Shown here piece by piece: positions 5,047 to 59,718 of a stretch of 64,000 nt of DNA (position 1 is the stretch's first letter; every line of letters begins with the position of its first letter). The stretch is from positions 26,680,501-26,744,500 of the forward strand of contig NC_091666.1 in the NCBI RefSeq assembly GCF_042453785.1, read 5' to 3'. Source of the DNA: Malus domestica. Lineage: Eukaryota > Streptophyta > Magnoliopsida > Rosales > Rosaceae. The notes beneath the pieces were generated by a model that saw only the letters and a program-made list of their open reading frames with translations, made no database searches and was not told the origin of the DNA. Position numbers and translations under genes: made by a program.

Positions 5047-6111
5047 AATTCTTAATTGTGTGCCTGTTGCATTCCTCAAAGCATTTATCACCCTCGTGAA
5101 AACTGTAGGAGATGCACCAGTTTCTAGTTTGCCTCCTTACTTTAGGTTCTTACCTGTCCAGAACACCCCCTATGATGAATTGAATGTTGTGAGGGAGTCA
5201 ATCAAAGCACTGCTTATTGAGGAAGACATTGTACCAACCAAGTCACACAAGCAGAAGTTCTTCCATAAACCTCGCGAAGTGGGTAGGTTGTTGCCTGCTT
5301 TCTGGAATATTTTGAGAAAGGCAAGCAATCAAAGGGTTAGCTTGGGGAACATCTCTTCCCATGGAAGATATGTTTTGTGTGATTCATTTGACAAATCGGA
5401 GTATGATCACATTCTGAATTTCCTTGGAGTTGAACCAGTCGACGATGAGTGGTATGCTAAATGCATTCAGAGTTCCGATATTGTAGCCGGAGTGTCGAAT
5501 GATGTCTATTTGGAGCTTCTTTTGTTTGTCTCCGATAAATGGAGGTGGACATTCCACTGCACCAACATCAAGAACATTCCACTGATAAAATATGTCGATT
5601 TTGACGAGAGTGTATCATTCTGCAGCTTAAGCGCAATGCGGATTGGTGAAAAGAAGATTTTCCTATCCCGTCTTTCTTGTCATGTCTCATGGTTGATTGA
5701 TTGGAACAAGGAATTTATATCCGCAGCGAGTCTTCTTTTTATGCCAGAAATAACCCAGCGAGCTCTCCAGTCATGTTCTAGGAAGGAGGAGTTGGTGAAA
5801 TGGCTCGCAGAAGAAATGAAGGTTGATGCTGTAAGTGTTTACGAGTATGCAGTTCGCCTCGATCATTCTCTTGGCAATGAGCGAAAACCTGTTGTTGCAT
5901 ATGCCCACTTTTTGTATCATTCATTGTGCAATAAGTATATCTCTACTTAAGAAGTTGATCATTTATGTCGTAAAATGCCACTTGTGAATAACTACGGCTA
6001 CGTTAATAGACAAAGGAGAGGGCTTATTGTCCCTGCCAATGAAAGCAAATGGGCTGATTTGACTGATTCAAATCTGTGGATCGAAGAAGGCTATGTCGAG
6101 TTAGGAGAATA
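5047..6111 (+). pseudogene. Locus A exon 3, second part: NO VEIN-like middle region
   Basis: This continues exon 3 after the MULE: NCVPVAFLKAFITLVKTVGD, PPYFRFLPVQNTPYDELNVV, and so on for about 350 codons. One in-frame TAA lies at 5948-5950. Beyond it the same frame continues (EVDHLCRKMPLVNNYGYVN to WIEEGYVELGE) until the Helitron junction at 6111. No other break was seen. The protein continues at 27199 (ta|t tac ata aaa, giving Y-Y-I-K-P-G), so the Helitron also landed in an exon. Confidence 0.83.
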
Positions 6112-6150
6112 CTAGTAAAAATGCCCGCGCGTTGCTGCGGGACTTGAATG
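6112..6150 (-). other. Helitron 3' terminus (hairpin plus CTAG)
   Basis: On the plus strand this reads ctagtaaaaatgcccgcgcg followed by ttgctgcggg. The reverse complement forms a GC-rich stem-loop about 11 bases before the terminal CTAG. This is the classic Helitron end structure, used as the rolling-circle termination signal. Confidence 0.78.
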
Positions 6151-9090
6151 CACCAACCTTAACCACATGAATTAAGACATTTAACTTGAAAAAAAAAATC
6201 AACATAATCAAGAACAAACAAAAGGGATAGATGAGTAAAAGGTGTCGGTAAGATAAGCAGTTCGACTTTTATATACATTCAACCGAGCTGATTATAAAAG
6301 GTATAGTTGCAAAAAAATGCTCCGTTTCCTTGAGAAACAGAAGTAACATGCATTTAACACTTATATTGCCCTTCAAGTTAAGATGGCAAAATATATGTCA
6401 TACAGGCCAGGCACGTGTTTTAACAGCTAAACAAAAAAGCAAAAAAAAGTGTGTTGTTCTTGTTTCAGTAGCTAATCTTTCAAGCACTAATGTTCAAAGC
6501 TAAAAAGATGCAGGATGCCTGTTTCCATAAGTTACAGAAGAAACAGAAGGAAGATGTAGTCCACACATATTTTGCCCCTGTAGTAAAGGTGGTTAAATAC
6601 TTGTCCTACAGGCCAGGCACCTGTTTAAACAGTTAACAAAAAACATAAAAATTGTTCCGTTGTCGTTTCAGCAAGTTTTCAAGCACACATGTTCAAAGGC
6701 GAAAACATGGAGAGCGGCTTTATAACAGCTGATAAAACATAACAATCAACAAACTAAAGCTTTAAGCAACTAAATAAAGCACGGTTGGGTTTAACCTTGG
6801 GAATTAGGAATTAGGATAAGGGCCTAAATGTCAAACAAATTATAAGTATTGTATAAAAGGGTTAAGATAAGGGCCTAAACGTATTATAGCATGTTGCATA
6901 GATACAATAAGGTTAAGCTAAGGGCCTAAATGTATTATGGCATGTTGCATAGATATGTAAAAACTATTTATATAGAACATGCACAAATTATTTATATAAA
7001 GTATATAGTAGTAGTTTATAGCTTAGCTATGTACACTGATATATACATATTAAGAGATGCCCAAAATATAGTCGTTCCTATTTTACCGATGTACTCCAAA
7101 CATTGGAGCACTTTGACTACTAAGGATTAGTTGGTAGCTTAGTTATATTTGCAGAACCTTCTATACGTAGAGAGTTGATAGGATTTACATAACTTGTTTA
7201 GGGCTGATCTTCAACGATATTGCACCCTTGAGCTCATTCTTTTTTCTCTTTGGTTCCTGTTACAAAACAAATCAACCAAATAAAGAAAAATTAGTATGTC
7301 AAACAAAGAAATTATAACAGCTAAAAAAGTAGTTGATCTGTCTACCACACAAATGGTTATACAGCAATGTGTAACAAACAATATGATTATTCACACTTAA
7401 AAAGCTATCCTGTTATAAATGGTTGGGAATTAACGTTTTCAATTAAGACTTTTAAACTTTTTTTCTATTGTTGGATTGCAAAATGAGCATCCCAAATTGC
7501 ACATGTAAAGGATCTTGCACAGTTTGCAAAATTTTCTTCCCAAGCTACAGGAAACAAATTTTGGGAATGCAAAAGAGAAGAGCAAAGATTTCAGACTCAG
7601 AGCATGTTATTGACTCCACCACAAATCTGTTAACTATCAAAGACAAAATAGTACTTCTCTCTTATAAATGTGGTTATCAACCATTTTTACATATTTTTGT
7701 TAAAGTGTAACCTAATTGTTGATTCAATTACAATATCTGAAAATACCTCAAGTCAAGCCACCTGATTTTGGCATTTGGGTGAGAAGGGGATGCTAATATA
7801 TATTTCAAAAACAACATTGTACTTTTCAGTCATTTTCATGGTTCTTACCAAAATTTAAAATCTGGAGATAGTGAGGGAATAAGACAGTCAGGAAATAAAC
7901 AAATATTAGATATGATTCCAGATTCTAAAATAAATATCAGCAAGTCAAAAGTAAAAACATGACAAATTAAATATTGTAGTTAAGTTAAAGACCATATAAG
8001 TAATCTACAACTAAAAAGCTAGATATTAAACCTAAAATCATGTAACTATGTATGAAGCGGAGAATAATGCAGAAAGATGGTTTTCTATAGTGCTGCCAAT
8101 GACAATTAATTTTTCATGAAAACAAAGAAATGAGAAACAGAGGTATAAAAGTATATTATTTTTTATAGTTGCAAATATTATGAATTCAAAAAGAAAAACT
8201 ACAGATAACACTTCAATCATATACCTAAGCATCTAAAACGCGGCGCCCAAGATACCATTCAAGACAGGGCTCAACATCATGGATGAATTAACCTATCCGT
8301 GTCCCCGAGCTCACTGCATGTCATATACACCTGACCAACTGGGCATAGGAGCATAATGAGGAAAACTTTCAACACCACTGTGTACCTAAAAAATTAAGGG
8401 AGGAACTAATTAAAACGTATCCTCAGTTAGAAGAAAATAATGCATGCATAATAGCCACATGGACCTTGTGTATATAAATTGTTGTGGCAATAATTTGCAA
8501 TAGAAAACATTGTTATAAATAAGATATACGAAATACCAACATTGCAATGGTTTTTTTTTTTTCATTCGATTGTACTGAAGCATGCATCTTAGTGGAGAAC
8601 AATTAAGTACTACGTGAGGTCTATAATGAAATGGGAGATTGAATACAGTCGAGGAAACTGAAAATTCAAATATGCACACACTCCATAGTATTATCTTCAC
8701 AACCAAAAGAAACGTTTATATATACGACATATGTTTGACATTGTTTTTCGCCACTCAAATTGTCTTGAGAAAATTTGACTACATTGAGAATAAGCAAAAG
8801 AGTACTTTTTACTACCTAATTTACTAACATCTACCAAATCCAAAAGCTACAAAATTTTGATTAAAGAATCATATAGAATAGAATGAGAAAGTTATTAAGA
8901 CACCATATCTGAATTTTTTGCAAATAAAAACACCTATATTTCACCTGATTTTCCAATGAAATATAGATGCTTGTATTTCACCAGTACATAAACATGGTTT
9001 TAAATATTAGTCTCATCTATGATATATTTCGTACTGTCATAGATAGAGAGATTAATAAAAGACCTCTCGCAATGTTACTGTGTCATGGTA
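6151..9090. other. Helitron I body, no recognisable gene
   Basis: This AT-rich sequence has many short ORFs and no coding support. The stretch 6160-6260 (around aacaaacaaaagggatagatga) is repeated at about 17660-17740, which marks the start of the second Helitron. A GC-richer stretch at about 8240-8390 looks exonic on minus (for example DVEPCLEWYLGRRVLD), but it has stops and no recognised family. Confidence 0.5.
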
Positions 9091-9092
9091 AT

Positions 9093-9242
9093 AAGGGTGT
9101 GCTATCTACACACCCCATTTTACTTCTCACACACCCCTTGATAATTTTAGTCCGTTGATATTCTTCAATTCATCCGATCCGATGACCGAAAATTAAAAAG
9201 GTGTGAGAAGTAAAATGAGGTGTGTGGATGTCACACCCCTAG
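9093..9242. mobile_element. Small foldback MITE
   Basis: About 150 bp with long inverted arms: gggtgtgctatctacacacc, then ccattttacttctcacacac on the left, matched by gtgtgagaagtaaaatgagg and tgtgtggatgtcacaccc on the right. Flanking gtaata on both sides may be a target duplication, but the exact boundary is ambiguous, so no superfamily is assigned. Confidence 0.65.
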
Positions 9243-11370
9243 TAATAATTTATATTACTTCTTTTATTATACCCAAACCTATACCAGTTTGTAATATTCA
9301 ACCAACTTTAAACCTTTTGGATTAGAACACGGGCAAATGAAAAAATAAGTTAATGCAAAATCTTTAGCACCTCAACTTGCAAAATATTTGCAATAAATTG
9401 AGATCTATCACAAACAAAACAGTGTCGAAACCAAAGATGCTAACTCCCAACACAATCAAAACTACATATAGGAAAAAGGAAATGAAGCTTAAAAAGCTTA
9501 AATTAGGGAAAAGAGTTGGAGAAGCAACAACTGACATTATTTACCAAGGCTTTTCAAGGTTGGCAATATAATGGATATGCTTCCCAGGAGCTTCAACTAA
9601 AGCTTGATAAATTGTTGAAATGGGTTGGAGCAGAAGTAATTTGAGTGCCTTCTTTCTGACTACCCAAAAAAATATATATTTTAAGATTAGATATTACAAA
9701 CTGCTGTACACATAGTAATAGAATCAGTGTTAATTTCTCCATTTTATAGCAATACCTCATAACAAATCATCGTCGACAAACGAAATGAGTTTTAGTTTTT
9801 GAATTAAAAAAGCCAAAACACATTTTCAGAGAGTCTGTTAGCCAGAGAAAATCAGAATAGCCAATAGCAGACAAATCCGGAAAAACAGATAGACACAAAT
9901 AGAATCATTCAAATTTTGTATTTTGTTAGTTTCTCATAGCAAGGAGTAAACAATTTAACACTTGAAAACCTGCAAGCCAGTGGCTCAAAGATGAAAAAAA
10001 ACTGTACAAACCCAAATCAACTAAGTTACAAAATAACATCAGAGTCTGTGTAGCGATCTAGTTTTTTATTTTGTAATTAAATTTAATCTCAATTTTTTGC
10101 CCAACAATGGAACCATCAGAGGTTGTGCAGCAATAGTGCACAACAGTTTAGTAAACACCATAAGTGAATGGGGATAAATTGAATATTAATACATCTACAT
10201 CTATTAGAATAGCTAAACATGTAACATAATTCACACCAATAAACCATCATTCAATTTGAATTTTGAAGTAATCTGTCCATATTGCCTAAACTACTTAACC
10301 GAAAGAGAACAAATTTACTGGAAAATTTCTAATTTTTCCTAATATGTTAGTAGAGAACAATTTCTTACATGTTTCAATATATCCACAAAAATGGTTCTTT
10401 TTCCTTATGAATCTGACACGGACACCTGCAACTCCCCTATAGAAATAAAAAAACAACCTGAAAAATTAAAAGGAAATGATTAGACCCAATAGTCTCTGAT
10501 GAAATCCAACAAATTGAATAGGGGTTTACATAAATAGGCAGAAATTTAAAAAAAAAATCCATTCAAATACATGAACAAAAGATATTAAAACAACAAAAAA
10601 TCAAGAGAAATCAACTTTGCAGTAAACTCTAGATCCAAAAACAAAAAAATTATTCCTTCTCTATTCCTTATCTAGCCATCACTCTCAAAATTCCTCAATC
10701 CCTTATATCTCACAAAGAGAAACACATGCATGTCCATTTCCGATCTTAAAACCGAAAGAACTGTTTCGGTTTCTTAGTTTCTTACCCAAATCCACCAATT
10801 CAAATCAAATTTTTGCAACACACATGTGAAATAGATACACAAAACACCAACATTACAATGGTTTTTTTTTTTCATTCACAGATGTGAAATAGATACACAA
10901 AACACCAACATCATACATTCTTTTCTTGTGGCTTTGGTGGCTTTGGAAAATGGGTTTTTTTTTTTTGTTCAAGGCAATGGACGGCAGCAGAAAAGGGGGA
11001 GTGCAGACAGGCAGCAGATAAGCTGCAGAAAAACAGCAGAAAAGCAGGAAAAAAAGAAGTAGAAATTAAGCAGAAAAGCAAGAAATTGACTCGAACTTAC
11101 CAATTTTTTTATTCAAAAAGGAGTTGGAATCAAACTAAACCTGAAAAATATCATATATCCAATATTAAGTGCATACACCTATAAACTAATCCTTATATAT
11201 ACTTTAAAATAATATGGATCAATGTAATCTAAAATGTTATTATATTCAATATGGCAATACCAAATTGTAAAGTGAACTCTAAAAAGTAAGGCCTATGGTA
11301 GATATCTGTATTATATAGCAACTTCATTTCCATCAGAGAGTACACATCATTGAACAAACTAAGAAGATAC
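9243..11370. other. Helitron I body, no recognisable gene
   Basis: AT-rich, with poly-A/T runs. Near 10825-10915 the phrase gaaatagatacacaaaacac is duplicated with about 65 bp spacing, and a related copy lies near 8530. The stretch 11135-11240 is repeated at 17905-18010 in the second Helitron. No gene was seen. Confidence 0.5.
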
Positions 11371-11840
11371 CTGTTGTAAATTGAGAAGCTTCCTCTCAAG
11401 ATCTCTAACAGCATCATGTCGCTCTTGAATTTCGGCCAAAGTGTCCATTATCTACAATTTGATACACAATTTTGGAAATGATCAATCTTAATCAGAAAAT
11501 TAAGTTTTCAACAACCCAAGCTAGAAGAGTTAGGAGCTTAAAATTAATTGTTTAAGATGTCAAAAAATGTGTCAAGTTTGTGAGAGAATGCACAATTTCG
11601 ATTGTAAAAAGTGCTTATTTAGGGGCAGAGAATAAAAAAGGATATTTGACAAACCTAGCCTCCCCCTTGTTCTTGGATTGCCTTCTGGAAAATTTGTTCA
11701 CCATCTCCCGTCTCAATTAATCTTTCAATTGTCTGTACAAAGTAAAATAATTAGAAAATGAGCATTCACAGTGGTATAGATATACCGCAATTTCAATAGT
11801 GCAATAAGTTTTACCTCTTCATCAGCTCTTGCGCCCATCA
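11371..11840 (-). pseudogene. Captured exons of a SYP13-type Qa-SNARE (syntaxin)
   Basis: Three spliced exons lie in order on minus: 11840-11815 (MGARADEE), 11732-11655 (TIERLIETGDGEQIFQKAIQ, EQGGG) and 11451-11371 ([26 protein letters not shown]). Each has plausible AG and GT borders. Together they match the segment of plant plasma-membrane syntaxins (SYP132/SYP131 group) just before and at the start of the SNARE helix. The full protein drives vesicle fusion at the plasma membrane. Here the Habc N-terminus, most of the SNARE motif and the C-terminal anchor are missing. The second exon ends in TAG where the family has Gln. This is a Helitron-captured fragment and is not functional. Confidence 0.8.
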
Positions 11841-12169
11841 CTGAGATTCACAAAATGCAAGAGAAATAAACTATAAAATCAGATCATAGAAATTCAAGTA
11901 GAAGTTCCAGAAATAGCAACCACTGATGAGTGGCAAGTAAGGGGTTCAAACCTGTAAAAATAATGTACCACAAAATAATAGAAAGGCAACAACTTTACAC
12001 ATTATTACGTATAATTTTCATTTTCTATATAGTTTAGCATGTTTTTTGTTAGATGATCGATCTATACGCACACATAGCATATGTACATGGATATATACAA
12101 CATAGAAAATAAACACAACTAAGATAAGGACTACCATCAAAATTGAACGGATAACGAAAATACATATCA

Positions 12170-12232
12170 CCTTCTTTCCCATCTCTAATGCTATGTCATA
12201 AGTCCCTAAAGAAGCAACTGCCTGAAGGATGA
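12170..12232 (-). pseudogene. Possible captured exon, unrecognised
   Basis: On minus, an open stretch reads QAVASLGTYDIALEMGK, followed by a region without coding character. It lies upstream of the syntaxin exons in the same orientation, but it does not match the syntaxin sequence I know. It may be from another donor gene. Confidence 0.3.
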
Positions 12233-12289
12233 AGAAAACCAGAAACTCATAATAACCATAGCAGACAAACCTAGAAAAAGACGGAAACA

Positions 12290-12370
12290 ACAACAACAAA
12301 GTCTTTTCCCACTAAGTGGGGTCGGCTATATGAATCCTAGAACGCCATTGCGCTCGGTTTTGTGTCGGTA
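12290..12370 (-). repeat. SINE/RTE-LINE 3' tail with (TTG)n end
   Basis: The plus strand reads aacaacaacaaagtcttttc followed by the palindrome cccactaagtggg and gtcggctatatgaatcc. On minus this is the widespread plant retroposon tail, with a CCCACTTAGTGGG hairpin followed by a TTG-repeat end. Only about 80 bp is recognisable. It is inserted in Helitron I. Confidence 0.65.
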
Positions 12371-15150
12371 AAAAAAATAAATAAAAAAAATAAAATTATT
12401 CAGATTTTGTATACTGTTAGTTTCTCAAGTAGTCTTTACATATTCATTCAAGATTATGCATCTATTAGAGCGCTTTAAGCAGAACGGTAGCGTAGTATTC
12501 AAAATTATATTCAAATGATCATTGAGGATTTTTTACAAATGAATCTCCCACTATTCTACTTAAACAACCACATACTCAATACCAAGTGAAAATTGCATCG
12601 TTTTTACAAAACATTGAAAAACATATGAACTGATGCCCAACTTTAATTAATCTGACATTAATAGTTGAGTAATTCAACATTCAGAGTTGACAGGAGAGTA
12701 TATAACATTGGAAAACATATGAACATGCCCACCTATTTGGCGGTTGAATAATCATCACATAAATTTACATTATTCACAAATTTGATCATTCAAATCTTCA
12801 CATCCAATAAGTTTAGAAAGGTACCTAGCTTCCTTACAAAATCGTATCTCTACAGGCCAAGGCTCAAATTCCCTTGCTGCTGCCTTCATTCAATAAGTCC
12901 TGATTCAAACAGTCACATATATCAGATATATATATATATATATATATAAAATAAGTTGATGCGTTCAATGGGCATGAACTTATCAGGTATTATGAAACCG
13001 ATTGAACACGTTTAGTGTAATGTCCGCAATTAAATAATGAGCGTGAAAATGACTAACAGGGGTAACACAAACTGCTCAACTTAGGAATTAAAGCATCCAA
13101 TATTTAGAAAATAATTGACAATTTTCATGGTCAAATTAATTAGGAAAATCATAAATAATAAACTCAATTGTTTCAACTGCTAATTCTGATGAAGCAGCAG
13201 TAGTTCGACATATTGCTTCTGATGAAGATTATTATATATCAGTGGTGCAAATTAGCAAAATAATAGTGCTTTCAGACTTTTTGAAAACATTTGAAAGTGC
13301 CTTCAGACTTAAATTCACCAATTTCATAACCTTCTCCATCAGTACCTTCACCTTCTCCGTCCCCCCCTCCTTCATCACCTACTTCATCAACTCTCAATAT
13401 CACCAAAATTCTAAATGACTATCCAGACTTCATAATAATTTTTTTATTTAGCCTAAAATAGGAAAAAACCCAAAACAGAAGATGTACAGAACTTTAGACA
13501 CGAACATTTCAAGATATGAATTTGAGGTCTACTACACATCATTACAGAGGACTAAATTTAAGATCAATAGGATAAAAAGACATGCATTTTGATATTTTCA
13601 TGCATGTACTTCTTGTACTCAATGCATTTCCGGAGGAGAAGAGAAGGATACCATCTCTTTATCTACTCTCTTCCAAAATAGTAGCATATCTCTGGCTAGT
13701 TTCCTTGTACGAATTGTAGCCCCCTCATCAATTTAAGAGATCTACTGACCTTCAATTTCACCTACATAGAATAAAAGAGTCGACAGTTCAGTATAAACAT
13801 TACAAACGCCATCTGATGAAACCTAAACCCTACAAACGTCAGAAAAGGGTACAAATTTTAGAGAGACAACGCTGTCAAAATCTTACAGGAACAATCCTAG
13901 GTAGAGCAAATCTTTCAAAACCAACCCCATCCCTCCCTCACTCTCTCTCTGAAATTCTCACACCCCCATACCCCCATATTCAGCATCACTACTCAACCCA
14001 TAATTCTATCTCTGCATTCCCACTACCCCATCCCCATGCCCCCAAATTCAGCATTTGTTTTTCATCTAAATTACTATGAAAAAGTGTGATTAATAATCTT
14101 AACAACATGCTCAAAATAAAGCCCAAATTATCCGAAATGGCATACACTTCAAAACAAAAATTTAATTCTGCTACAGGTAGGGGGAGACGGGTTAGGACAG
14201 TGGGAAATGGACCACTTTTTTTTTATTCCTTGATTCCATCATTTTGTAGGTGGTCTACGAACTCCTTAATTTAATAAGATTAGTTTAGGACTTGTGAGCA
14301 TAGGTGCTGCACGTTGATAACAAAACAATTTAAAAGTTGAGAAACCTTATCCACTCATCTATTCTATTAAACCTTAAAGATACCACCCAATATAAACATA
14401 AATTAAATATAACTCGAAAAAATACAAATAAAACAAACAATAATCAGCAAACAAAAACCCTAAACATTCATATTTTTCAGATTCAAATGAAACCCAATTT
14501 CCACACATTAAATTCAAAATCCCATCAAAGAAAATCAAATGCTAAATCCAAAATCTGCATTCTCATAAAAAAAAAAAAAAAAAAAAAAAAACTTGATTTT
14601 AACTTTTATAAATGCAAAAAATCATATATGCAAACTTAAAGGAACAAACAAAAGAATTACTTACAGAAATTTCAAAAGCTTAATCATGCGCTTGATGGAT
14701 CTAGTGGAAATTTGTTGGACCTTTTCCCTAATTAGATAGAATTCGACGTTGGCTGCAGCAAACTGAAAAACACATTGTCACCAAGCATAAAAGCCGTTTT
14801 TCAGATGAAATGAGGGCATATATAAATATCATTCGGATTCAACAAACTGCATACTAATTCCTGTTTAGATTTTTTAAATTATTTAGTTACTATGGTAAGA
14901 AACATAATTTAAATAATTATGAGAATAATATTTTAACAGTCACAATAAATATCATAAATGAACTAATAAGACATTTGCATTCAAACAAAATACAAATGAT
15001 TTAGTCAATTACTGACTTCAAATCTACTAATTTTGTGAGAGAGAGAAATAATTACAACATTTTTCTATGCACGACGATGATAAATATGACTCATAAATAG
15101 TTTTGACCTTAAATAAAAGAAAATGCTCAGGAAAATCAAATTTAACAGAG
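12371..15150. other. Helitron I backbone, shared with Helitron II
   Basis: No gene was recognised. The stretch 14170-14390 (from gggggagacgggttaggaca) is clearly repeated at 18265-18470, with the same order of blocks. This marks a shared Helitron backbone. A 25-base poly-A run lies near 14568. Confidence 0.6.
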
Positions 15151-17312
15151 GTCAATACCTGTACCAGGGAAAAGAATGGATGCATCCATTTCTGTAAAGG
15201 CTGCACTGCCCAAGAAGTAAATACATTATGATGAAAGTATATTCATAAATTAATTAAAAAATGAAAGGAAATTATGCATCACGATTTCGACTTACTTTTT
15301 TGGCAACTTGTTGCAGTGAAGAAGAGAGCCAGAGGTACCGTATCAGGTACCCACCACCAACGCTGTGTAATGATTTTCAATATAAAAAAATAAATAAAGA
15401 ACACGTTATGGGCTTGAATTGCAGGTGCACTCTCTCAGTTAGTAGCAAATAATATAGTCATGCTGCCTAACCATGATAAAAATTAACAATTGTGGAGATA
15501 TATGTGAGCTCCAAGAATCAAATCAAATCCATTTGTATACTTGCCCATTCTATTTTCTCAGCTACTAATTCTGCATATACATAATCAAAATGAATTATTA
15601 GCCAAGTCCACTTCACATCATATGTTTTGAGATTATTTTCTCACCAGAACAACAGTTAGAATTCTCTGAAGATACAAATGCATGCAAATCTATAGTTTTC
15701 TTCAGGATCTGTGACAAAAACATAAGCACGCTTCTTATTTCCAAGAATCATGTTGATGAAAACGTTTCATCTCTTCATATTTTATGTCCCGGCCGATAGT
15801 AAACTCCTCTGTTCTTCGGATTTTTCTGTTGTCTTGCATCTTGCGCATTAAAAAATGAACGGACTTAAAGGCTGCCACTTCTAAGTAGTCTTTGATGTCA
15901 GGCAGTGACCACCTGTAACACATGAGTAATTGTCTCTCAGTAATTCAGAATTCACCAGAAAAACAAAATATTATCAAATAAGTAATAATTGGAAAAACAT
16001 AAACAACTTACAGCCTCCAGCTGTATGAAAATGCTTGTTTAATTTTCTTCTGCTGCTTTTAGGAGATGGAAATGGAGGCTTTTTCTTGTCTTGTGCTCAA
16101 TGATATCAATTTCAGCTTGCTCCCAAATGTACTGCAAAAGCTAAAAGAAAGTTACAGACTTTGCAAGTAAACAATAGCCGCTAATTTTTCTCCAAAATTT
16201 TCAGATACCTCATTCCCAACCATACATCCAAATAAAATAAAAGTAAAAACTCCACAGTACCAATACACAACCAAAATTTGAACCTGAAAATCCATCTTCA
16301 AAGTTCTATCAAATGCGAGCATTTACTCAATTTTAAGAAGTTGTATTGTTAAAACTTAAATCCCATGATGAACCCACCTTCCTTAATCTTTTCTAAAGAA
16401 GCAATAATTCAAATAATGTATCCAAATTAGAAAATAACATATGATTCATGATATCTTATACTTTCATATCCAAGTTATGTTTATGCAAATCATGAGAGAC
16501 ACGCATTTAAATCTCATCCCACACGCCCTAAGTAAAAAAGAAACCAGCTCCTCCATCATTCAATGTCCAAGCAGATTTAGCATGTGGAGTAATAGAATAT
16601 CAAAACGCAAGTTACAATTTTTAATGTACTTTAATAATTATTTCTTCAACTTTACCTCCAAGTAGTTCTTCCGATGGAAATAATTGATTTCCAGTGCCTA
16701 ACCAGTGAGGCACCCTTTCTTTCCCACACTCTCCTTAACAATCCATGAACCTGAAGAGAGAAGAATCAGTAATAAGTTAATTGATCTTAGTTGGTTCCAT
16801 AACTTGCTAATACGAAAAGAGAACAAAACAAAAAAAGTTAATCGAAGGATTTTACAAAAGCTACAAAAATTAACTAAATCTCACATCAAAAGAACCCAGA
16901 AATTTAATGAAGAATTCTCCAAAACCCACAAATTAAAACGTAAAATTCTACAAAATCATGAAAAATTTAATACAATCTAATTATATTAATCACCAAATTG
17001 AATTAGATCTTCACATCCAATAAGTAACAGAGTTTGAAAACATTATACCCCAAGAAACCCCAAATTTACAGAAATTGGGAGCAAAGATTGAAGAGATCTC
17101 ATGAAGCCGACATCGAAATCGTCAATCGTGTTGCAGAGCACAGTTTTTTCATTTTGGATTTCCAGATAAAGATTCAAACCCAAAACTAAGTAATTTATAA
17201 AAAAATGCACTGAATCAATTCGAGAAAGTGCAAAAATTATCAAACCTCAAGATCTCTTCCGTCGTTTGCGGACTCGAGCCCATCTCCATGCTCCTCTCCT
17301 CCATCTCACCGA
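15150..17312 (-). pseudogene. Exon-like pieces of an unrecognised captured gene
   Basis: Several minus-strand stretches look like exons with splice borders. They include a possible first exon, MEERSMEMGSSPQTTEEILR, at about 17311-17250. Others are LLQYIWEQAEIDIIEHKTRK at about 16140-16040; WSLPDIKDYLEVAAFKSVHF and LMRKMQDNRKIRR at 15915-15735; a piece ending at gtaagt near 15290; and FLGSAAFTEMDASILFPGTG near 15205-15140. The order and common orientation suggest one donor gene whose 5' end was captured, but I do not recognise it. Some pieces contain stops in continuation frames. It is not presented as a working gene. Confidence 0.38.
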
Positions 17313-17379
17313 AGCTCTCGAGTTACATAAATGAAGGCCACTTTGAGTGGTTTTGATTTTAGGAAGCAGGAAGCCGATG

Positions 17380-17760
17380 CTATTCCAAAGATGGTGTTGT
17401 GGCTGTTAGGGTTTCAGAAAGGGAAAACGAAGCCAAATGAAATCGAGGATCTGCAGAAATGGTGCTGAGATCCCCACTCCTCCCGCTCCCTCTCTCTCGC
17501 TCTGTCTCTCTCCCTATCGGAGGCATGGCCTCCCATTCCCGAAAGCACTCACTGAATGACAGCAAACCTAAACCCACCCCAATCTGTCTCAAACGCACAG
17601 GACAAAATTGCCCTTCCAACCCAGCCCCAATATCAGCCCAAACCTGACGGCTTTGCTGTAAATAGGACATTTAATCTGCAAAAAAATTCATCATAATCAG
17701 GAACAAACAAAAGGGATAGATGAGTGAAAGATGTTGGTAAGATGAGAGTTGAATCAAAGG
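17380..17760. repeat. Junction between Helitron II (right) and Helitron I (left)
   Basis: The stretch 17390-17640 repeats the sequence that flanks the Harbinger insertion in Helitron II (22170-22466 plus 26918-27035). Examples are tcggaggcatggcctcccat and ctgaatgacagcaaac. Directly after it, 17660-17740 repeats the left start of the block (6170-6260). The order 5'-end sequence then 3'-end sequence means two related elements lie head to tail, with the outermost ends lost at the joint. Confidence 0.68.
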
Positions 17761-20059
17761 AATCAGTAGTGTAAAACTGACAAAATGCTTACAAATTCAA
17801 CTCCAATTGTGCTGATGTAGCTATCCAAGTATGAATTATCCTATTCAACGATTCCGAAGCTCAGACAAAAATTGCATGAGAAAAATTGAGATTATATGCA
17901 ATTGTATGTCAAATAATCTGAAAAATACCATATATCCAATTTAAGTGCATAAACCTATAAACTAATCTTCATATATACTTTAAAATAATACAGATCAATG
18001 TAATCTAAAACATTGGAAACATTATCATACAATTAAAGAATCACGATGCAGAAAATGTTCTTTCCATTATTTTCAAATAACTTTTCACCCCACAACACTG
18101 AGCCTCTGCGCATGACCCCTACCCCTCTCCCTGAAATCCTGAATACCCCATATGGTTCTCTCTCTCTCTCTCTCTCTCCCCAAAATGGGAAGTGGAAAGT
18201 TTGGTCATGCAAGACTTAAGACATTAATTATTTAAAGGACCTAATGGATGGCAGAAAATGGTTGGGGGAGACGGGTTAGGATAGTAGGAAATGGACCAGT
18301 TTTTTTAATTCCTTGAGTCCATAATTTTGTAAGTGGTTTGCCAACTCCTTAATTTAATAAAATTAGTTTAGGACTTTGTGAGCATGGGCGCTGCATGTTT
18401 ACAACAAAACAATTTTAAAGTTGAAAAACCTAACCCACTTATGTAATGTATTAAACCTTAAAGACAGCTCAACCTCTAATAATAATCTTATTAAATTAAA
18501 CCATAACCAAATTAAATAATGCAGACACAAAAGCACAACTATTGTCACACGAAGGAATTCACGATTAATACAATGTATATCTGTCGATAAAAAGATCTGT
18601 AGTAGCAAGCAATTCATCACACTATATAATCTGTCATATCTACCGTGAACTGCACTGCTTGGTCTGAAGTAGAGAAAAGAAACTAAGTATATCGTATAAA
18701 ACCTCAGGGCAAACAAATAACTATAGAAGACAACGCATCTAATTGCAAATCGCATGTACATCAAGGTTATGATCATCCATGTCTAGGTTTAAGACAATTT
18801 TAAGTAAAATTGCCACTATATATACACGGAGGGTGTCAAAGGAATTATATACTTTAATTAGTAAAATCAACGGCATATAAAATCCAAAAAGGGAATTCAA
18901 ATTGGAACAGACGGAAAATAGATAAAAGATTTACCAGAAGCAAAACAATCACACAGTATTATCTCCACAATGAAGAAATTGTATCGCCAAAATGGAGATA
19001 GATAAGTCTCAGACGGTTTATAGATGAAGGGAGATAGCAAAAATAAAAAGCGTAATCAGACAGATGAACAATGAAAATTAAACATACCAGGTGAGCAATA
19101 CCAGACATTCCTGCCTTCAAGCAATCGGATATTGTCTCCATGTTCAACTAAACCTCTATAGAAAACTGCAAAAAAACAGATGAGAATCATTTAGAAACGG
19201 GGAAAAAGTTTTCCATTAGCATTTTTCCAAAAGAAGGCAATCAATTGCTTTCACATGTAAAAAATAAAGTTTGAAAATTAAAAATGAAGCAAGTTGAGGA
19301 GCAGAAGCAGGTGACGGTAGACGATACATAAGTTTTTAGAGAATATCAAAATATATAATCTAGAAAAAACAAATAAAGCAGCCAATCCGAAGTTAAATAA
19401 ACAGAAAGAAAAAGACAACTTGAATTGAAAAAAATTCTTTTCTAAACACTTCATTTTCTATATTCTATTGGGTTCAATTTTTCACCAATTCTGCTTGGTA
19501 AAAAGACATACCGCCTTCAGAAAATGACAATCTGCTTGGTTATATAATCTAGCACCAATTCTGCAACTCCTTTCATGGATGCAGCTGCCTTGAACAGATC
19601 GGATTACATATGGCCAGCGGAGACGAACAATCTAATTCCTAATGGAAGACGACATTTATCAAGCGATGACTTTTTGGAGGCAACCACAAAGATGGAATGC
19701 TCTTTCAACAACTGCATAACCGCAACCATTACAATTAAAAGTAGAGAGGCAGAAAAGGACAGAAAAGGATTCACAGAATCTGCTTTCTGTAGTCTGAGGA
19801 AGACAATTCAGGATTCTGGACTGCTAGCGAATGAGAGGCCCTGTATAGCTGACAATCCTGCACACCACATCACATCACGTCACATTTCTCAATCAAGAGC
19901 ATCATAATGCAAGGCAGGCAGTAAGTGATCTCACAAAGCAAAGGGGATGCCAAGGAAATTGATCAAGTGATGAGTACACACCACGGCGCTGACAACTGTC
20001 CAGATACAGAATAAAGAACATCAAACTACATGCAAGTGAATAAGAGATCAAGAACATAC
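17761..20059. other. Helitron II backbone, no recognisable gene
   Basis: The stretches 17905-18010 and 18110-18480 repeat Helitron I backbone (11135-11240 and 13930-14390). A CT-dinucleotide run lies near 18155-18178. The 330-bp open stretch at 19575-19907 has no recognised domain and no splice support, so it is not called a gene. Confidence 0.55.
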
Positions 20060-20729
20060 CTTTCCATAATATGGCAATATTTTTCTTCAGCTTTGTTATC
20101 AGACCAGGGTTTTCCTCGAGGATATCAATGGCAGTAATGGCAGCACTTGCAAGATATGGGGGCAAAGAAGCAGAAAAGATGTATCCAGAGCTACTCAATC
20201 GCTGCCAATTACCATATCCCAAAATTTTATCATTTAGAAACTTTTGACGCTTTTTGTTTAATATATGCATGCACATAAGTGATTGTGAGCACATAATTAA
20301 GCATTCACTAAAATAGAAAGATAAGAAAGTCATTTGCTTGTTAAAAATTTCATCTATCAACAGAGACATCATATAAATGGTTAATAGTGTGTATTCGGTA
20401 AACATACTTGGTGATTGGTGACTCTAGCACTTCCAGTGCAAAATCCTCCTACTGTGGCTAATGCGTGTCCCATTGCACCAGTAATAATATCGAATTTTTC
20501 AACCTGCAAAATCACACCACCAGAAATCACAAACAGGTAATGGATCAATAGTTATGAGAGATACAAAAAAAGACGGGTTTCTAAAAATACCGGAATCCTA
20601 CAGTATTCAGTTACCTCTTCCAGATTTTCCAAGCACACCAAATGAGTTACTCTCATCCAATAACACATGAAACTTATATTTCTCCTTCAATTCAACTATC
20701 TTGTCTAAAGGGGCTATTTGGCCAGAATT
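20060..20729 (-). pseudogene. LCB1: Captured exons of serine palmitoyltransferase subunit 1 (LCB1)
   Basis: Three consecutive minus-strand exons have AG/GT borders. 20729-20615 gives [20 protein letters not shown] then [17 protein letters not shown]. 20503-20408 gives [20 protein letters not shown] then [12 protein letters not shown]. 20201-20060 gives [20 protein letters not shown] then [13 protein letters not shown] and [10 protein letters not shown]. This is the middle of LCB1, the non-catalytic subunit of the ER enzyme that condenses serine with palmitoyl-CoA in sphingolipid synthesis. The pieces are open, but the N-terminal transmembrane part, the first half of the enzyme fold and the C-terminus are absent. 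The short LAEHH-type segment expected between exons 1 and 2 is also missing. Capture by Helitron II is the simplest explanation. Confidence 0.85.
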
Positions 20730-22466
20730 CTGCAAATTTTATTAAAAGGAAACAAAATTCAAATAAAATCAACCTACATCTAATTGCATTCAGCTATTGA
20801 AGTTCTCAGAAAAACTGAAGACAATTTGTCAAGATGCAAATGACAACGTTGAATGCTGAAAAGACAGTTTGTTTTTCTATTTGCCAGTGATTCACGTAGA
20901 GATGGAAGCTTTCCTCAAAATGTAACATGACACCAAGACTTTAAGAAAAACCTTAAAAAATTGTGTCCACTGAAGTATGAGCAACCTATTTTGTGAAAGT
21001 GGATGATGCTGGATTGAATCATAAAACAGCTCACAACATATAAAAAATGAATAAATAAAATTTGATATACGGGAAAGCAACATACAGGAAAATCACTAAA
21101 AATACCAACGAAAAAAAGGGAAAACAATATACAGGAAAATACATTATCTTCATAAGTAAGAAGCAGATTGGAACAATGGAATTAGCAAAAAGCAAAAAAG
21201 CCCCAGCTCAAAACCCAATTTTTTTTCTAAATCTAATCCTAGATATGAACATTTCAGCGAAACCTAAACCCTGGACAGGCACAAATATTCAACTCTTCAT
21301 AGAAAATTTACAAAAATTTAAAGAATGACAACCCCAACAAAAAAAAAAAAAAAAAATCCAAACATATCCAAAATTAGCAAAAGCAAATCAGCCTCTCACA
21401 CTAAGCAAACACAGTAGCAGCCATGCACGCCCATGGCTCTTTCATCTCAGGAGGCCATGACTGACGACGGAATAAACAAAAATACCAAAGAAAGATCAGA
21501 TTCCAAAAAAAACCCAAATCGAAATGAACCCTAGAAATTGAAATTCAGAATTGAAAATTCAAATTGGGGGAGCTCTGATATTTTACCTAAATAGCAACTT
21601 AGGAGTTGCCGCTGCACCACTAATTCACAACTAAGCCATAGCCATATCCATTCCTCAACAATCTTTGAATTCTAATTAAAACACAAAAAATATTAGAAAA
21701 TGGTTAAAGATAAGTTATATAACCGCAGGCAAATCCATTCCTAAGCAATCTTTCAATTTTAATTATAAAAAAAAAAAAAATTGTTAATGATAGGTTACAC
21801 ACCTGACCCAGAAAGCGTTTGCAAACTCCCAAAACAAAACCCTAAAATTAGAAGATAAACGTTTCCTGCAACCAAAAATGAAATCAAACAAAAAATCCAC
21901 ACACAAATCAGCAAAAAATAAAGAAAGCATTTAGCAAGAATCGAATTTTACAACAATCAATTAAAAAAATCTCTCCAGATGAAATGTTCTATTTGTCCTA
22001 ATAATATTAGGTTATATATATATATATATATAAGATTAAAAAGTGAGAGAGAAAGAGAGAGATGAACCTTCATACGGAGGCTAGCGATCCGGAGCTCGAG
22101 AAATCTGTGGAAGCAAATGAAAAGGCCCTGATTTTCCATATTTCTTCTGTTCTAGGATGAGAGAAACGGAAGAGATGGAGCTGTGGCTGCTAGGGTTTGA
22201 GGAGGACAGAAACAGGAAGAGTGAGAGATGAGAGGGCTCGCGTAGGAGAGAGAGGAAGAGTGAGAGATGAGAGCTGGTTGGGTTCTACTCCTGAGACTCG
22301 TGTCCCGTTAACTACAGGCCCCCATACTTTTCTCTGACTGTCCCCCCTCTCCCACTCATGAAATCGAGGATCTGCAGCAATGGCGCTGAGATCCCCACAC
22401 CTCTCTCTCGCTCTCTCTCTCTCTCTCCCTCTCTATCGGAGGCATGGCCTCCCATCCCCGAAACCC
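20730..22466. other. Helitron II body, no recognisable gene
   Basis: AT-rich sequence with poly-A runs near 21340 and 21770 and an AT microsatellite near 22014-22033. No further LCB1 exon was found upstream. The stretch 22170-22466 is the right-hand Helitron sequence that also occurs at 17390-17560. Confidence 0.5.
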
Positions 22467-22689
22467 TTAGAGCAATTCCACCCCTGTGGACTTTGCGCCA
22501 GCACCCAGCGCATTTATCCACTCAAATGAACAGTAATAGACTGGAGTGAACAGTAATAGGCCAAGGCATCTCCACCCCTAAAAAAATGCGCTGGCACCCA
22601 GCGCATTTATTTGGTGTGTTTTTTTTTTAAGTTTATTTCGGATAAGATTTTTAACCCATTTAAAATAAAGAATAAAAAAATAAAATAGT

Positions 22690-23030
22690 TTTAATTTCGG
22701 ATAGGATTTTTAACCAATCTCGTCACGCCACGTGTCATTATCTGAACGTACTATTTTGTGAATAGATTTCCGATATTATTTTCAACCAATCCCGACACGC
22801 CACGTGTCACTTCCATGGTACAATAATTTAGCCAAGATTTCGATAAGATTTTCAACCAATCACGTCATGCCACGTGTCATTATCCGAACGTACTATTTTG
22901 TGGATAGATTTTCGATAATATTCTCGACCAATCCTGACACGCCACGTGTCACTTCCGGTTTACAATAATTTAGCCAAGATTTCGATAAGATTTTCAACCA
23001 ATCACGTAGTGCCACGTGGCATTGTCCAGA
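22690..23030. repeat. Tandem repeat with five CACGTG palindromes upstream of the transposase
   Basis: CACGTG occurs at 22729, 22801, 22871, 22943 and 23013, with spacings of 72, 70, 72 and 70 bp. Each sits in a gccacgtg(t/g)(c) context preceded by a caacca- or gacca-like box. Two alternating unit types give a period of about 142 bp. Subterminal repeats in Harbinger elements are usually read as protein-binding sites. CACGTG is also the plant G-box bound by bHLH and bZIP factors. Confidence 0.8.
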
Positions 23031-23157
23031 ACCTCATCCTTTCTTTTTTTGTCCATATAAACCCTACATCTCTACATCCATCCTCACACCAAGCTCAATC
23101 CTTCTTTTTAGCTCAGAATCCTTGTTCATCATTTTCAAATCTTGAGTTCTTATTACA

Positions 23158-24564
23158 ATGTCTTCTTCAAGAAGGGTGTATAAGCAGTTGCAAGAGCAAC
23201 AACAAAGGTTGTTGGCACAACAGGCAGAATTGGCCAATCTCGAGGAAGGTGGAGGTGGAGATGAGGCTTTCTTCATGGAGGAGGATGAGGATGATCACCA
23301 TAGAAGGCAGAAGGCCTCACATTCCCGCCGTGTCATGGAAGCCGTGGGTCAGATAGCCAAACCAAGACGTGTTGCAAACCTCGATAGAAAAAGGGAAAAA
23401 CGAGGTAAAAATCTATTGGAAGATTATTTTATTCCCAATAGCATATTCCCTGATCATGTTTTTAGACGGCATTTTAGAATGCAACGACATTTGTTCAACA
23501 AAATCATGAGTGATATTTGCAACCATGATTCATACTTTGTGCAAAAAGAGGATGCTTTTCATGTTCTAGGTCTTATTCCCGAGCAAAAAATTACGGCATC
23601 CTTGCGAATGCTTGCATATGGAGCATCTGCAGATCAAGTGGATGAGATCGCGAGGATGGGAAAAACAACTGTTCTGGAGTCCCTGATGCGGTTTTGCTCT
23701 GCAATTGAAGCCCTCTACACCAAAGAGTACCTCCGGACACCCACGTCAAGGGACATGCGAAGGCTTCTGAGGAAGGGTGAGATGCGAGGCTTCCCTGGCA
23801 TGATTGGAAGCATCGACTGCATGCACTGGACTTGGAAAAACTGTCCAAGTGCGTGGCAAGGAGCATATGGCGACAGAAAATGAGCCAAAAGCATCATTTT
23901 GGAAGCGGTGGCTTCATTTGATACATGGATTTGGCATGCTTTTTTTGGTGTTCCAGGAGCTCAAAATGACCTAAATGTCCTTGCTCAATCCCCAGTGTTC
24001 GACGAACTGCTGCAAGGAAACTCGCCGAGATGCACATATTAGGTTAATGGTACCCAATACGAGGGATCATACTACCTTGCAGATGGCATTTACCCAAGGT
24101 GGTCAACATTTGTCAAAACAGTGCCACATCCACAGACTGAAAAGGAAAAACACTTTGCAAAATGTCAAGAAGGGTGTAGGAAGGATGTCGAGCGTTGTTT
24201 TGGTATCCTGCAAGCTCGTTGGGCGATTGTCAGGGCTGCAGCTAGAATGTTTGATGTCGAGGCTCTTCGATCCATCATGATGACGTGTATTATTCTCCAT
24301 AACATGATTGTTGAAGATGAGTATGATTATGATGCCGTCAATGAATATGAGCCAGATCCGATGAACAACTCAAGAACACGTATTTATTGTGCTCATGATG
24401 GGACCGAAGATCCAGTGCAACACGAGCCGTTGGAACGTGATGGACGTTACAATGAATTGATCGTTCAGCGGTACACTAATGTGCAAGAGCCATACTGGCA
24501 CGTAACCCGCCAGAATGACTTGATTGAGCACCAGTGGGGATTGCATGGAGGCGAAGATAATTAG
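23158..24564 (+). pseudogene. Harbinger DDE transposase (ALP1-like), two in-frame stops
   Basis: A single frame of 469 codons starts at MSSSRRVYKQLQ and ends HGGEDN. It is broken only by TGA at 23881-23883 and TAG at 24042-24044, the latter where a Trp is expected (Y-W-V-N-G). Signatures in order: RRHFRMQRHLFNKI (about residues 101-114); the HTH-like LRMLAYGASADQVDEIARMG (about 151-170); GSIDCMHWTWKNCP with the first catalytic Asp (about 221-234); GAQNDLNVLAQSPVF with the second Asp; and RKDVERCFGILQARW with the catalytic Glu. The family's normal length is about 400-470 residues. Only point stops have accumulated, so the loss looks recent. Confidence 0.9.
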
Positions 24565-24930
24565 AATGAGGCTTGTGGTTGAAGAATAAATTGTATTTTT
24601 TTTAAGTTTAAGTAATTCTATGTAGTGTGTTTTGTTTTTAAGTTTATTTGGTGAGTTTATGTAATTCTATGTAGTGTGTTTTGTTTTTAAGTTTATTTGG
24701 TGAGTTTATGTAATTCTATGTAATGTGTTTTGTTTTTAAATTTATTTGGTGAGTTTATGTAATCTTATTTCATGTGTTTAAATAAAGTACAAAAGAAATT
24801 AAATAAATAATTACATTAAAATTGCATAAGAAATTAAATAAAGTTCAAACCTAAAAAAAGAAAAAACATAAGAAATTAAATAAAGTTCTACTAGAAAAAA
24901 GAAAGAAAATACATAAAAATACATAAGAAA

Positions 24931-26201
24931 TTAAATAAAGTCTCTCGAGTTAGGATATGTGGTGCTAGGATCTTGGTTGCCATGATTTGTGTAGCTAGAA
25001 CCCCCTTGACTTGTTTCCGCATCTCTTGCACGCCTCCTACGCATGGCATCTCTTTTTTCCGATGTCCAAAAATATTTAGAATTCGGAGACAGTCCTACTA
25101 GAGACTTGCTCATAGTGTCACGATCTGCTTGAGCCATCCTTTCTTCTCGAAGCAATTCATTTTCTCGATGAAGTGCTTCTCTAACCAGCTCGTTCTCTCG
25201 ATTAACTACTTCTCTTTGTCTTTCAGCCGCCGCATCACGGGCCTCAGTAGCTGCTAATATTGCTGCCATAGCAGCAACTTTTTCCTCATCTCTAGCCTTT
25301 TCTCGTGCCAAGTTTAGTTCACCTTGGCGAGCAAGTTCCTCCATATATTTAGTGTAGTCATTTTTGGAAGAACTACCTTTTTTCTTTGACGCCTTTTTAC
25401 CTAGAGGCCTTAGGGACTGACGAGTCGGTTGGGTCTCGGGCACTTGTTCAGCCGTCCCTTCCGTGTCTTGAAATGTGTCGGCTTCTTGTTCGGCCATGTC
25501 TGGTTCTGGAGAACTATGTAGACCCATACCGTGCATGACAACTTCTGGACCAGTTGCCACAATTTTGTATTTAGGGCAATCTTTGACAATTTGCCAACAT
25601 TCCAATCTATTGAATGATTTGTTCCCGTTCTTTGAATTGTAGAATGCTTGAGCTTGTAGTGTCTATAAAAAAGTGGGATAACATAGTGTTAAAAAATGCG
25701 GGTGTAACACAAATAAATAAATTCAAAATATTAATACGGGTGGAATGCATATAAATTACATAAAAATGACATAAGAAATTAAATAAAAATGACATAAGAA
25801 ATTAAATAAAAATTACATAAGAAATTAAATAAAAATTACATAAGAAATAAGATAAAAATTACATACGAAATTAAATAAATCAAAATATTAATGTGAGTGG
25901 AATGCATATAAATAAATAAAAATATTGTCACCTGATCCGCTAAACTTGTCCCACTACGGAGGTTACCGGAAGCATGAGAGATGGCGTTTTTCCAACAAGT
26001 AAATGATGCGTTGAGTTTTTTCCAACGACCTTGAAGACCTTGACTAGTTCTGGCGTTTTCTCCATGTACATCACAAAACGCTTTCGTAATTTTACTCCAC
26101 ATCTCTCGCTTATCCATCTCATTACCCGTAATCGGATCATGAGTAGTGTGAACCCAACATTCACACAACGTAACATCTTCAATGAGCTTCCACGAAGACA
26201 T
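24931..26201 (-). CDS. Harbinger second ORF: MYB/SANT-like protein, spliced
   Basis: Exon 1 is 26201-25932 (90 codons, MSSWKLIEDVTLCECWVHTT to GTSLADQ). The intron 25931-25663 has GT and AG borders, and exon 2 is 25662-24931 (from TLQAQAFYNSKN). Phase is maintained, giving about 333 residues with no stop. The N-terminal half is a trihelix/SANT-type DNA-binding domain (WVHTTHDPITGNEM, WSKITKAF, LQGRWKKLN, YNSKNGNKSFNRLECWQIVK). A coiled-coil, Arg/Glu-rich region follows (ARQGELNLAREKARDEEKVA, ENELVREALHRENELL). In this superfamily the second ORF binds the transposase and terminal DNA and is needed for mobility. It may still be expressed and could act in trans. Its promoter region matches the segment now in front of the transposase of Harbinger 2. 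Confidence 0.8.
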
Positions 26202-26917
26202 TTTTTTCTCTTAAAGTGTAGAAAATATTGAAATGTAGATAGTATAGAAAGTGTAGAAAATATTGGAATGTGGTGTAAAGGTAGAAGATGAGGGTTAGGT
26301 ATTTATAGGAAAAAAAATTAACATTTTTCAAAATTTTCTGTAATTTTTTTAAAATTTTCTGTATTTTTTAATAATTTTTAATGAATTTTAATATAGTTAA
26401 TTAATCTGGATCGTTGGATTTGAAAAATATTCAAATCCAAGAGCTAGGGAGTTGCCACGTGGCCAACGGTCATATTTCTGACCGTTAGGCCCTTTTTTTT
26501 TTTTTTAATTTACTTTTTGTGAAAAAAACGTGGACCGTTGATCTTTGATCCGACGGTCTAGTTTAAAAGTAAAATTTAAAATTTTTTTACCATTGGAAAT
26601 CCAACGGTCTAGAAAACTAGCCGTTGGAAATCCAACGGCAGAGAGGTAGCCACGTCGCAACTCGGGGGGGGGGACTGACAGCGCCTGCACGCGGGCCCCG
26701 GCGTCTGAAAGCTTGTCGGGCACTCGCCAAACGGCTGCGTGAAGTGCACGCGCCATGCTTCTTCCCCGGCTTCTGTCTCAGTCTCTTTTGGGCTGGGCTC
26801 TTGCCCAGCTCGGGCTGGGTACCAGTCAGTTTGTTGGGGTGGACTTGATTGACAGAGGCCTGGCTTGGTTTTTGGACTGGAGGCTGGGACATTTGGTCCC
26901 CGGTGGAATTGCTCTTA

Positions 26918-27198
26918 CTGAATGACAGCAAACCCAAACCCACCCCAATCCGTCTCAAATGCACAGGACAAAATTACCCTCCTAACTTTTAATAACTACG
27001 TTACAACCCAGCCCAAAATCCCACGGTTTTGTTGTAAATAAAGCAAAATCGAGGGGGGAGGAATTGACCTCAAAAGACAAAATCACCCTCTGAATTTTTT
27101 AGAATTACCCCCCAACCCAGCCACATTCGGCTGGCATTGTCATAAATAAAGCAAAATCAAAACAAACCCTGCCCTCCCCCCTACTTTAGAATAAGTAA
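26918..27198 (-). repeat. Right (5') end of the Helitron block
   Basis: Two imperfect copies of an about 115-bp unit lie in 26970-27160, each with aacccagcc followed by a gtaaataaagcaaaatc-type end. A related single copy ends Helitron I near 17600-17650. The terminus on minus reads TCTAAAGTAGGGGGG. The last eight plus-strand bases, ataagtaa, belong to neither the Helitron pattern nor the host exon. Confidence 0.55.
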
Positions 27199-52011: not shown

Positions 52012-53073
52012 TGTTGGGGCTTAAAAAGACTTCACTACTTTGAAGTTGTTTATCTCACAAAGGAGTATGTAATGCAGCGGAATTGATAGGCAAGAGAAAG
52101 AAAGAATACTCAAAGTTTTTACACAAGATTTTTATTCACTCACAAACTTAGTACAAGAGGAAACACTCAAACACTCTTAGAAGCTTTGTTGCTTCTTCTC
52201 ACTTCTCACTACTTGCTCTCTTGGTTGTTACAAATGGTGTGGATACCTTTTCCTTTTATAGGCATGGATTGAACCTTGGAGAAGCATGGAAGCATCATGC
52301 TATCTAGATAATTCCACTACCTTCCTAAGCTAGAATTATCTACACTAATCTTGTATGTTGGTGGAATCCTCACCATTATTCTAGACTCTTCCACCAACTT
52401 GAACTTTGTTAGAATTCTCTAGCATGTGCATGGATCTTTCTTTGTGCATGGGCTGGATCCATTATCTTTGGGTCAAGACAAGATTACAATTCAACATCCC
52501 CCTTTAATCTTGTCTTGTGACGCCAATTGTGTTCCTTAATCTGACAAAGTCTTCTTGCCTGAGTGGTTTGGTGAATATGTCTGCGACTTGGTCTTGTGAC
52601 TTCACGTATTCCATTTGCACATCCTTTCTTGCAATACATTCTCTTATGTAATGATAGCGGGTATCTATGTGTTTGCTCATGTCATAGAATACTGGATTCT
52701 TTGCTAGAGCTATTGCAGACTTGTTGTCGACATAGATCTTTGTTGGCTCTTCTTGTGGCATGCTTAATTCTTTCAACAAGTTTCTCAGCCAGATTGCATG
52801 ACAGACACATGAGGTAGCAGCTACGTATTCAGCTTCGCAGGTAGAGAGAGTGACAATCGGTTGCTTCTTTGACATCCATGTGAATGCAGTATCTCGCATG
52901 AAGAACACAAATCCAGTAGTGCTTTTTCTATTGTCGAAATCTCCTGCCCAATCACTGTCGCTATATCCAGCAAGTTTGTAGTTATCAGAACTTGAATAGA
53001 ATAAGCCAAAGTTAACAATACCTTTAAGGTATCGAAGAATTCTTTTGGCAGTCTTCACATGTGTAGTTGTGGG

Positions 53074-55805: not shown

Positions 55806-55809
55806 GTAA

Positions 55810-59300: not shown

Positions 59301-59718
59301 GGAATTGATAGGCAAGAGAAAGAAAGAATACTCAAAGTTTTTACACAAGATTTTTATTCGCTCACAAACTTAGTACAAGAGGAAACACTCAAACACTCTT
59401 AGAAGCTTTGTTGCTTCTTCTCACTTCTCACTACTTGCTCTCTTGGTTGTTACAAATGGTATGGATACCTTCTCCTTTTATAGGCATGGATGGAACCTTG
59501 GAGAAGCATGGAAGCATCATGCTATCTAGATAATTCCACTACCTTCCTAAGCTAGAATCATCTACACTAATCTTGTATGTTGGTGGAATCCTCACCATTA
59601 TTCTAGATTTTTCCACCAACTTGAACTTTGCTAGAATTCTCTAGCATGTGCATGGATCTTTCTTTGTTCATGGGTTGGATCCATTATCTTTGGGTCAAGA
59701 CAAGATTACAATTCAACA

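Follow-up and report, generated by a model that had tools for sequence, protein, structure and literature searches.

Two related Helitrons with different gene cargo joined in one composite element of Malus domestica

Introduction

How Helitrons gather fragments of several genes is still argued. The question is raised by a stretch of Malus domestica DNA of 64,000 nucleotides, here called the window (G000:C6:26680501-26744500), in which an earlier note had placed related Helitrons in tandem, with distinct cargo, at positions 6112-27198. How did two such elements come to lie head to tail, and do they move together? The window was analyzed within its assembly (651 Mb, 19 contigs; C-numbers below denote contigs of this assembly). 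The proposed arrangement was borne out by collinear blocks, cargo matches and single units found elsewhere: the element is two related non-autonomous Helitrons in tandem, with different cargo. We are nearly certain that they are fused head to tail, that their internal ends are lost, and that the fused element is present at three sites with the same outer ends.

Results

Insertion site and outer ends

6112..27198, minus strand: composite non-autonomous Helitron of 21,087 bp, delimited by an empty site and by outer ends that recur at C17 and C1 with differing flanks

The earlier note had proposed looking for an empty site joining 6111 to 27199, and one was found as a paralogue of the host gene 64 kb away. 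Host sequence 5514-6111 joined to 27199-28000 was 94% identical to G000:C6:26771800-26773200 (1317/1401), with the sole gap of the alignment placed elsewhere and none at the insertion joint. The region 6112-27198 is one insertion. In the window copy, where the empty site could be read, the host sequence is GAATA/TTACAT, with the element between the A and the T and no target duplication. The base before the 3' end was A in 11/11 complete ends and the base after the 5' end was T in 8/8, counts that omit three internal-joint rows and five off-register rows of the end listing, which are not ends, and that include one 3' end and one 5' end at the C2 tandem joint, where the neighbor supplies the flanking base. 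The host copy looks decayed, since the alignment showed stop codons at 5948-5950 and 27653-27655 that are absent from the paralogue. A Pfam search of the two host open reading frames (ORFs) gave no match above cut-off and did not name the host gene. Self-comparison showed stretches related to this gene further along the window.

The outer ends are as follows.

6112..6141, minus strand: 3' end, made up of CTAG and a hairpin that stops 12 nt short of the terminus; probable terminator
27180..27198, minus strand: 5' end, TTACTTATTCTAAAGTAGG, placed by end comparison and the empty site

With up to 3 mismatches allowed, the hairpin sequence (6123-6141) had a single match in the window and was present in 0/100 shuffles; its DNA fold had a z score of -2.7, with 3/200 shuffles folding equally well. 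CTAG was present at 10 of the 11 listed 3' ends, the exception being ATAG at the C2 joint. The element thus has the 3' CTRR preceded by a hairpin that is typical of plant Helitrons. The literal 5' TC is absent, the element starting with TTAC. The earlier note was therefore right about the 3' hairpin and CTAG at 6112 and wrong about a 5' TC: the subfamily start TTACTTATTC was found in 8/8 complete 5' ends of the copy listing and in 2/2 of a second comparison, and a genome search for the 20-base string of the 5' end, next T included, gave 13 matches. A TC at 27190 was rejected as the 5' end because complete ends extend to 27198. Among relatives, those at the C4 and C15 joints start with TC (TCTATACTAAAG or TCTATTCTAAAG), so kinship to TC elements stands even though the literal motif fails. 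Tools that demand a 5' TC would overlook elements starting TTACTTATTC.

Two units and their joint

6112..17665, minus strand: unit B, a Helitron carrying syntaxin exons; it keeps a complete 3' end and lacks the outermost 168 nt on the 5' side; single copy at C10
17666..27198, minus strand: unit A, a Helitron carrying LCB1 exons; it keeps a complete 5' end and lacks the last 63 nt on the 3' side, CTAG and hairpin included; single copies at C2 and C3
17665..17666: fusion point, where the unit B 5' side (ending GTAAATAG) meets the unit A 3' side (beginning GACATTTAATC); 3 exact genome matches

The earlier note had suggested a search for each unit on its own with intact ends. Unit B was found alone, complete at both ends, at C10:38291422-38304381, and unit A likewise at C2:30786888-30796056 and C3:9454067-9463270. 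The missing 168 nt and 63 nt were measured against such copies. A TTTAGAATA motif inside the single LCB1 units was considered as an internal 5' end and rejected; it looks like chance, its surroundings being unlike a 5' end. For a further copy at C13:17.66 Mb, the unit B 5' end was not found within the 30 kb examined.

Self-comparison of the window confirmed collinearity of the two units. The three backbone repeats that had been placed near 6170, 11135 and 14170 and near 17660, 17905 and 18265 proved to be real blocks (E values of 8e-21 to 3e-64): 6170-6262/17660-17750 (85%), 11138-11234/17915-18010 (92%) and 14176-14380/18260-18464 (87%). A fourth block lies on the 5' side (17437-17544/22358-22463 and 17545-17620/26911-26986, both 89%). 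Block 14176-14380 was also found near the ends of other family members. Block 11138-11234 is a dispersed repeat too and is therefore weak evidence for a common backbone.

A complete pair of ends near 17650 was ruled out by end comparison and hairpin search; the hairpin search found no hairpin at 17665/17666, and the empty-site comparison showed no target sequence between the units. Homology at the fusion point is limited to an imperfect AATA. Because the internal ends are missing, the joint is neither an intact head-to-tail product nor the outcome of a plain bypass of an intact terminator.

Composite copies elsewhere in the genome

With 3 mismatches allowed, the 34-mer spanning the joint occurred three times in the genome (C6, C17 and C1), each time exactly. 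The two further composites, at C17:8491039-8515247 (24,209 bp) and C1:30450440-30467582 (17,143 bp), match the window element from outer end to outer end, insertions and a 215-bp gap aside, and have the same terminal bases in different flanks. The differing flanks argue against segmental duplication as the source of the copies. In the C17 copy about 7.7 kb is inserted between the positions matching 6785 and 7001 of the window, and 215 bp of the window are absent there. The same joint and the same outer ends in different flanks at three sites indicate that the pair moves as one composite Helitron; from these copies we infer that the composite transposed as a unit.

Sequence differences among the three composites were alike in both halves (0.50-0.65% in unit A, 0.56-0.71% in unit B). 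Against other copies they differed by 0.69-0.98% in unit A and by 2.45-3.74% in unit B. Over 4776 columns of unit B, 39 sites distinguish the composites as a group from three other copies, against 4 in conflict; over 4762 columns of unit A, 10 sites set the composites apart and 2 conflicted. The composite split beat all conflicts in 500/500 resamplings for unit B and in 497/500 for unit A. A further shared feature lies within unit A.

18101..18123: site at which about 4 kb, present in the single units at C2 and C3, is absent from all three composites

Since the composites group together by shared sites in each half and all three are without these 4 kb, the plain reading of the sequences is that there was probably one fusion, followed by spread. 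Two independent side-by-side insertions in the exon would instead make the other copies of the joint a coincidence or an assembly error. Neighboring insertion does occur in this family, but the joint is the same on three contigs, the composites have sites in common in either half, and no host sequence separates the units. In the light of the copies, the empty site and the joint count, this explanation is refuted for practical purposes.

Tandem joints in the family

Near-intact head-to-tail joints of family members were found at at least four places, C2, C4 (two) and C15, a lower bound set by the use of an exact pattern; the C2 and C4 joints were read, and that at C15 is a pattern match. The stretch G000:C4:353156-375751 contains an array of at least three family Helitrons that abut end to end, exactly or nearly so, and within this array a unit with a B-type 5' end comes after another Helitron. 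Since such joints exist, the composite probably began with self-insertion, one Helitron of the family landing next to another.

At C4:365294 and at C15, TC comes immediately after CTAG or CTCG. Such joints are predicted both by insertion between A and TC and by circle-like joining. They bear on the proposal that rolling-circle read-through made the tandem directly, through insertion of a circle or concatemer or through bypass of an intact LCB1-unit terminator. For Helraiser, both terminator bypass and circles closed by exact CTAG/TC joints have been documented (PMC4778049), and the direct joints at C4 and C15 could be of that kind, but they are also expected from insertion between A and TC. 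The joint in the window is without both ends, and units that differ in cargo are not expected from a concatemer of one circle. We regard this origin as improbable.

The composite might also be a chimera formed by template switching or gap repair between separate Helitrons, or in an extrachromosomal intermediate, that moved as one afterwards. The joint does lie inside both units with short, imperfect homology only, and a complete LCB1-syntaxin tandem was absent among the joints found. Deletion within a tandem pair is simpler, however, given the near-intact tandem joints of the family and the B-type 5' end that follows another Helitron in the C4 array, and we consider a chimeric origin unlikely, if worth serious consideration.

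A second element of related build was found in two copies, at C10:37906500-37916499 and C12:9430300-9440299 (L034 and L035). It has one outer 5' end, one 3' end and an extra internal 5' end that is without its last 5 nt. The two copies are 98.9% identical over 9365 columns and have different flanks; stretches past the internal 5' end match other places at 84-93%, and the inner unit was not found alone in our search. Together with the tandem joints, this element suggests that the setting for fusion recurs.

A RepHel search gave 142 Helitron_like_N matches, with 150 of 177 candidates scored. By their coordinates, RepHel domains at C11 (2.95-2.98 Mb), C5 (27.19-27.20 Mb) and C16 (33.03-33.04 Mb) lie near family ends in the matching sense. 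Among the matches listed, none fell in the window element.

Captured genes

11652..11732, minus strand: SYP132-like syntaxin exon fragment (tblastn, E value of 1e-6)
11332..11451, minus strand: SYP132-like syntaxin exon fragment (tblastn, E value of 9e-11), the match extending into a possible intron
19550..20732, minus strand: exons of LCB1, serine palmitoyltransferase subunit 1 (PDB 7yjm/7yjk, E values of 5e-21 and 7e-10; tblastn with LCB1)

The cargo named in the earlier note, syntaxin exons in the first unit and LCB1 exons in the second, was confirmed by tblastn, with SYP132 and LCB1 queries, and, for LCB1, by matches to PDB sequences. Both cargoes lie in the Helitron sense. Stops at the edges of the syntaxin exons may be intron read as exon, and the last LCB1 exon contains stop codons. 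Pfam searches gave nothing above cut-off for six short ORFs of the syntaxin unit (best TFIID-18kDa, E value of 0.07) or for two LCB1 ORFs.

Outside the family, the captured syntaxin stretch 11233-11960 matched C13:36.50 Mb (94%), C2:3.04 Mb (93%), C12:785398-786116 (92%), C2:3.15 Mb (91%) and C14:0.458 Mb (87%). The C12 and C14 places, alone among these, adjoin a SNARE-domain hit, and the probable source is therefore a syntaxin gene of this pair. A SNARE family search found no match inside the element, as most of the SNARE domain was probably not captured. The LCB1 region matched a gene-like series at C15:5234351-5235948 (91-94%), with a homologue at C8:7.46 Mb and a shorter 97% match at C4:31.15 Mb. 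Additional stretches of both units match other places, and each unit is therefore a mosaic.

A later insertion and other repeats in the window

22470..26914: later PIF/Harbinger insertion with 13-bp inverted ends (GAGCAATTCCACC) and a target site duplication, TTA, at 22467-22469 and 26915-26917

This element carries a Plant_tran ORF and a NAM-associated ORF and is absent from the C17, C1, C2 and C3 copies. It arrived later and is not part of the second Helitron. Once it and one copy of its target site duplication are subtracted, the composite is 16,639 bp long. A relative with similar inverted ends lies at 30928-33617. Further along, 485-bp direct repeats (97% identical) flank a 7.7-kb stretch at 52012-59718; with repeats at both ends and the host gene repeat continuing on either side, it looks like a long terminal repeat retrotransposon. 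Within it, at 53074-56384, are direct repeats of 576 bp that are 98% identical and separated by 2.7 kb.

Discussion

We propose that a tandem pair lost its internal ends by deletion and was then transferred as one composite Helitron, an account to which we give a probability of about two in three. The LCB1 and syntaxin units would first have become adjacent, as family Helitrons insert beside one another. A deletion would then have removed the internal 3' terminator of the LCB1 unit (63 nt) and the 5' end of the syntaxin unit (168 nt). RepHel supplied by related elements would start at the LCB1-unit 5' end and meet no terminator at the joint, and transfer would run on to the syntaxin-unit 3' hairpin, moving both cargoes as one element. 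The earlier note had offered two origins, read-through of a termination signal and insertion at the element's own end. With the internal ends missing, neither was found in the form in which it was put; read-through in effect is nonetheless what the composite would undergo, since three composites with one joint imply that the pair moved as one once the internal terminator was gone.

Several points weigh against this account. Complete LCB1 and syntaxin units lying side by side were not found in the genome, and their earlier adjacency is a presumed step; the joint is without perfect microhomology. The source of RepHel is suggested by coordinates, and we infer transposition from the copies. The site splits are unrooted, being made without an outgroup, and two of the three other unit B copies are partial (5095 and 5836 positions). 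In unit A the distance from composites to single units (0.69-0.98%) barely exceeds that among composites. The 5' piece 26914-27198 (285 bp) gives just one site for the composite group, and three sites there separate C6 and C17 from C1, C2 and C3, a pattern compatible with a single fusion without supporting it.

Composite Helitrons, multiple ends and read-through are already in print, and the present case is a new and unusually complete example with a clear history. In the FoHelis of Fusarium oxysporum, composite or chimeric Helitrons with several 5' ends arise by self-insertion, and loss of the innermost ends by deletion or mutation was proposed (PMC5148889, which also cites tandem Helitrons in bat, Drosophila, rice and maize). 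The account proposed here has in common with that one the insertion of Helitrons in or beside one another and the loss of innermost ends. The FoHelis, however, typically duplicate less than 200 bp of 5' sequence, by a proposed route (PMC5148889), whereas here two multi-kilobase units with different cargo are accompanied by single-unit relatives and three transposed copies. The nested Helitron of PMC3288121 likewise transposes from one 5' end with inner parts carried along, but keeps three 3' ends, whereas the present element has lost its internal 3' end as well as its internal 5' end. In Helraiser, loss of the hairpin raises read-through, and an element without its 3' hairpin more often reaches a further terminator (PMC4778049); flanking sequence was transduced in that assay, while here the piece carried along is a neighboring Helitron with its own terminator. 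Pack-CACTA hybrids also form between neighboring elements by complementary deletions, one losing its 3' end and the other its 5' end (reviewed in PMC13317346). Those belong to another transposon class, and the present units enclose no trapped chromosomal DNA. The literature searched, with few subscription journals in it, contained no report of this composite.

One genome contains the single-unit relatives, the fused element, further copies of it and the empty site, so that the succession of events can in large part be followed. The element also offers a natural plant test of the 3' hairpin as terminator, which is gone between two units, both of which moved as one. We put forward, tentatively and as a doubtful generalization for now, that loss of internal terminators in tandem Helitrons is a regular route by which whole cargoes merge, through self-insertion at their own ends, small deletions at the joints and spread. 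If true, this route would be for Helitrons what fusion is for Pack-CACTA elements, and it might account for the stepwise growth of gene-rich Helitrons.

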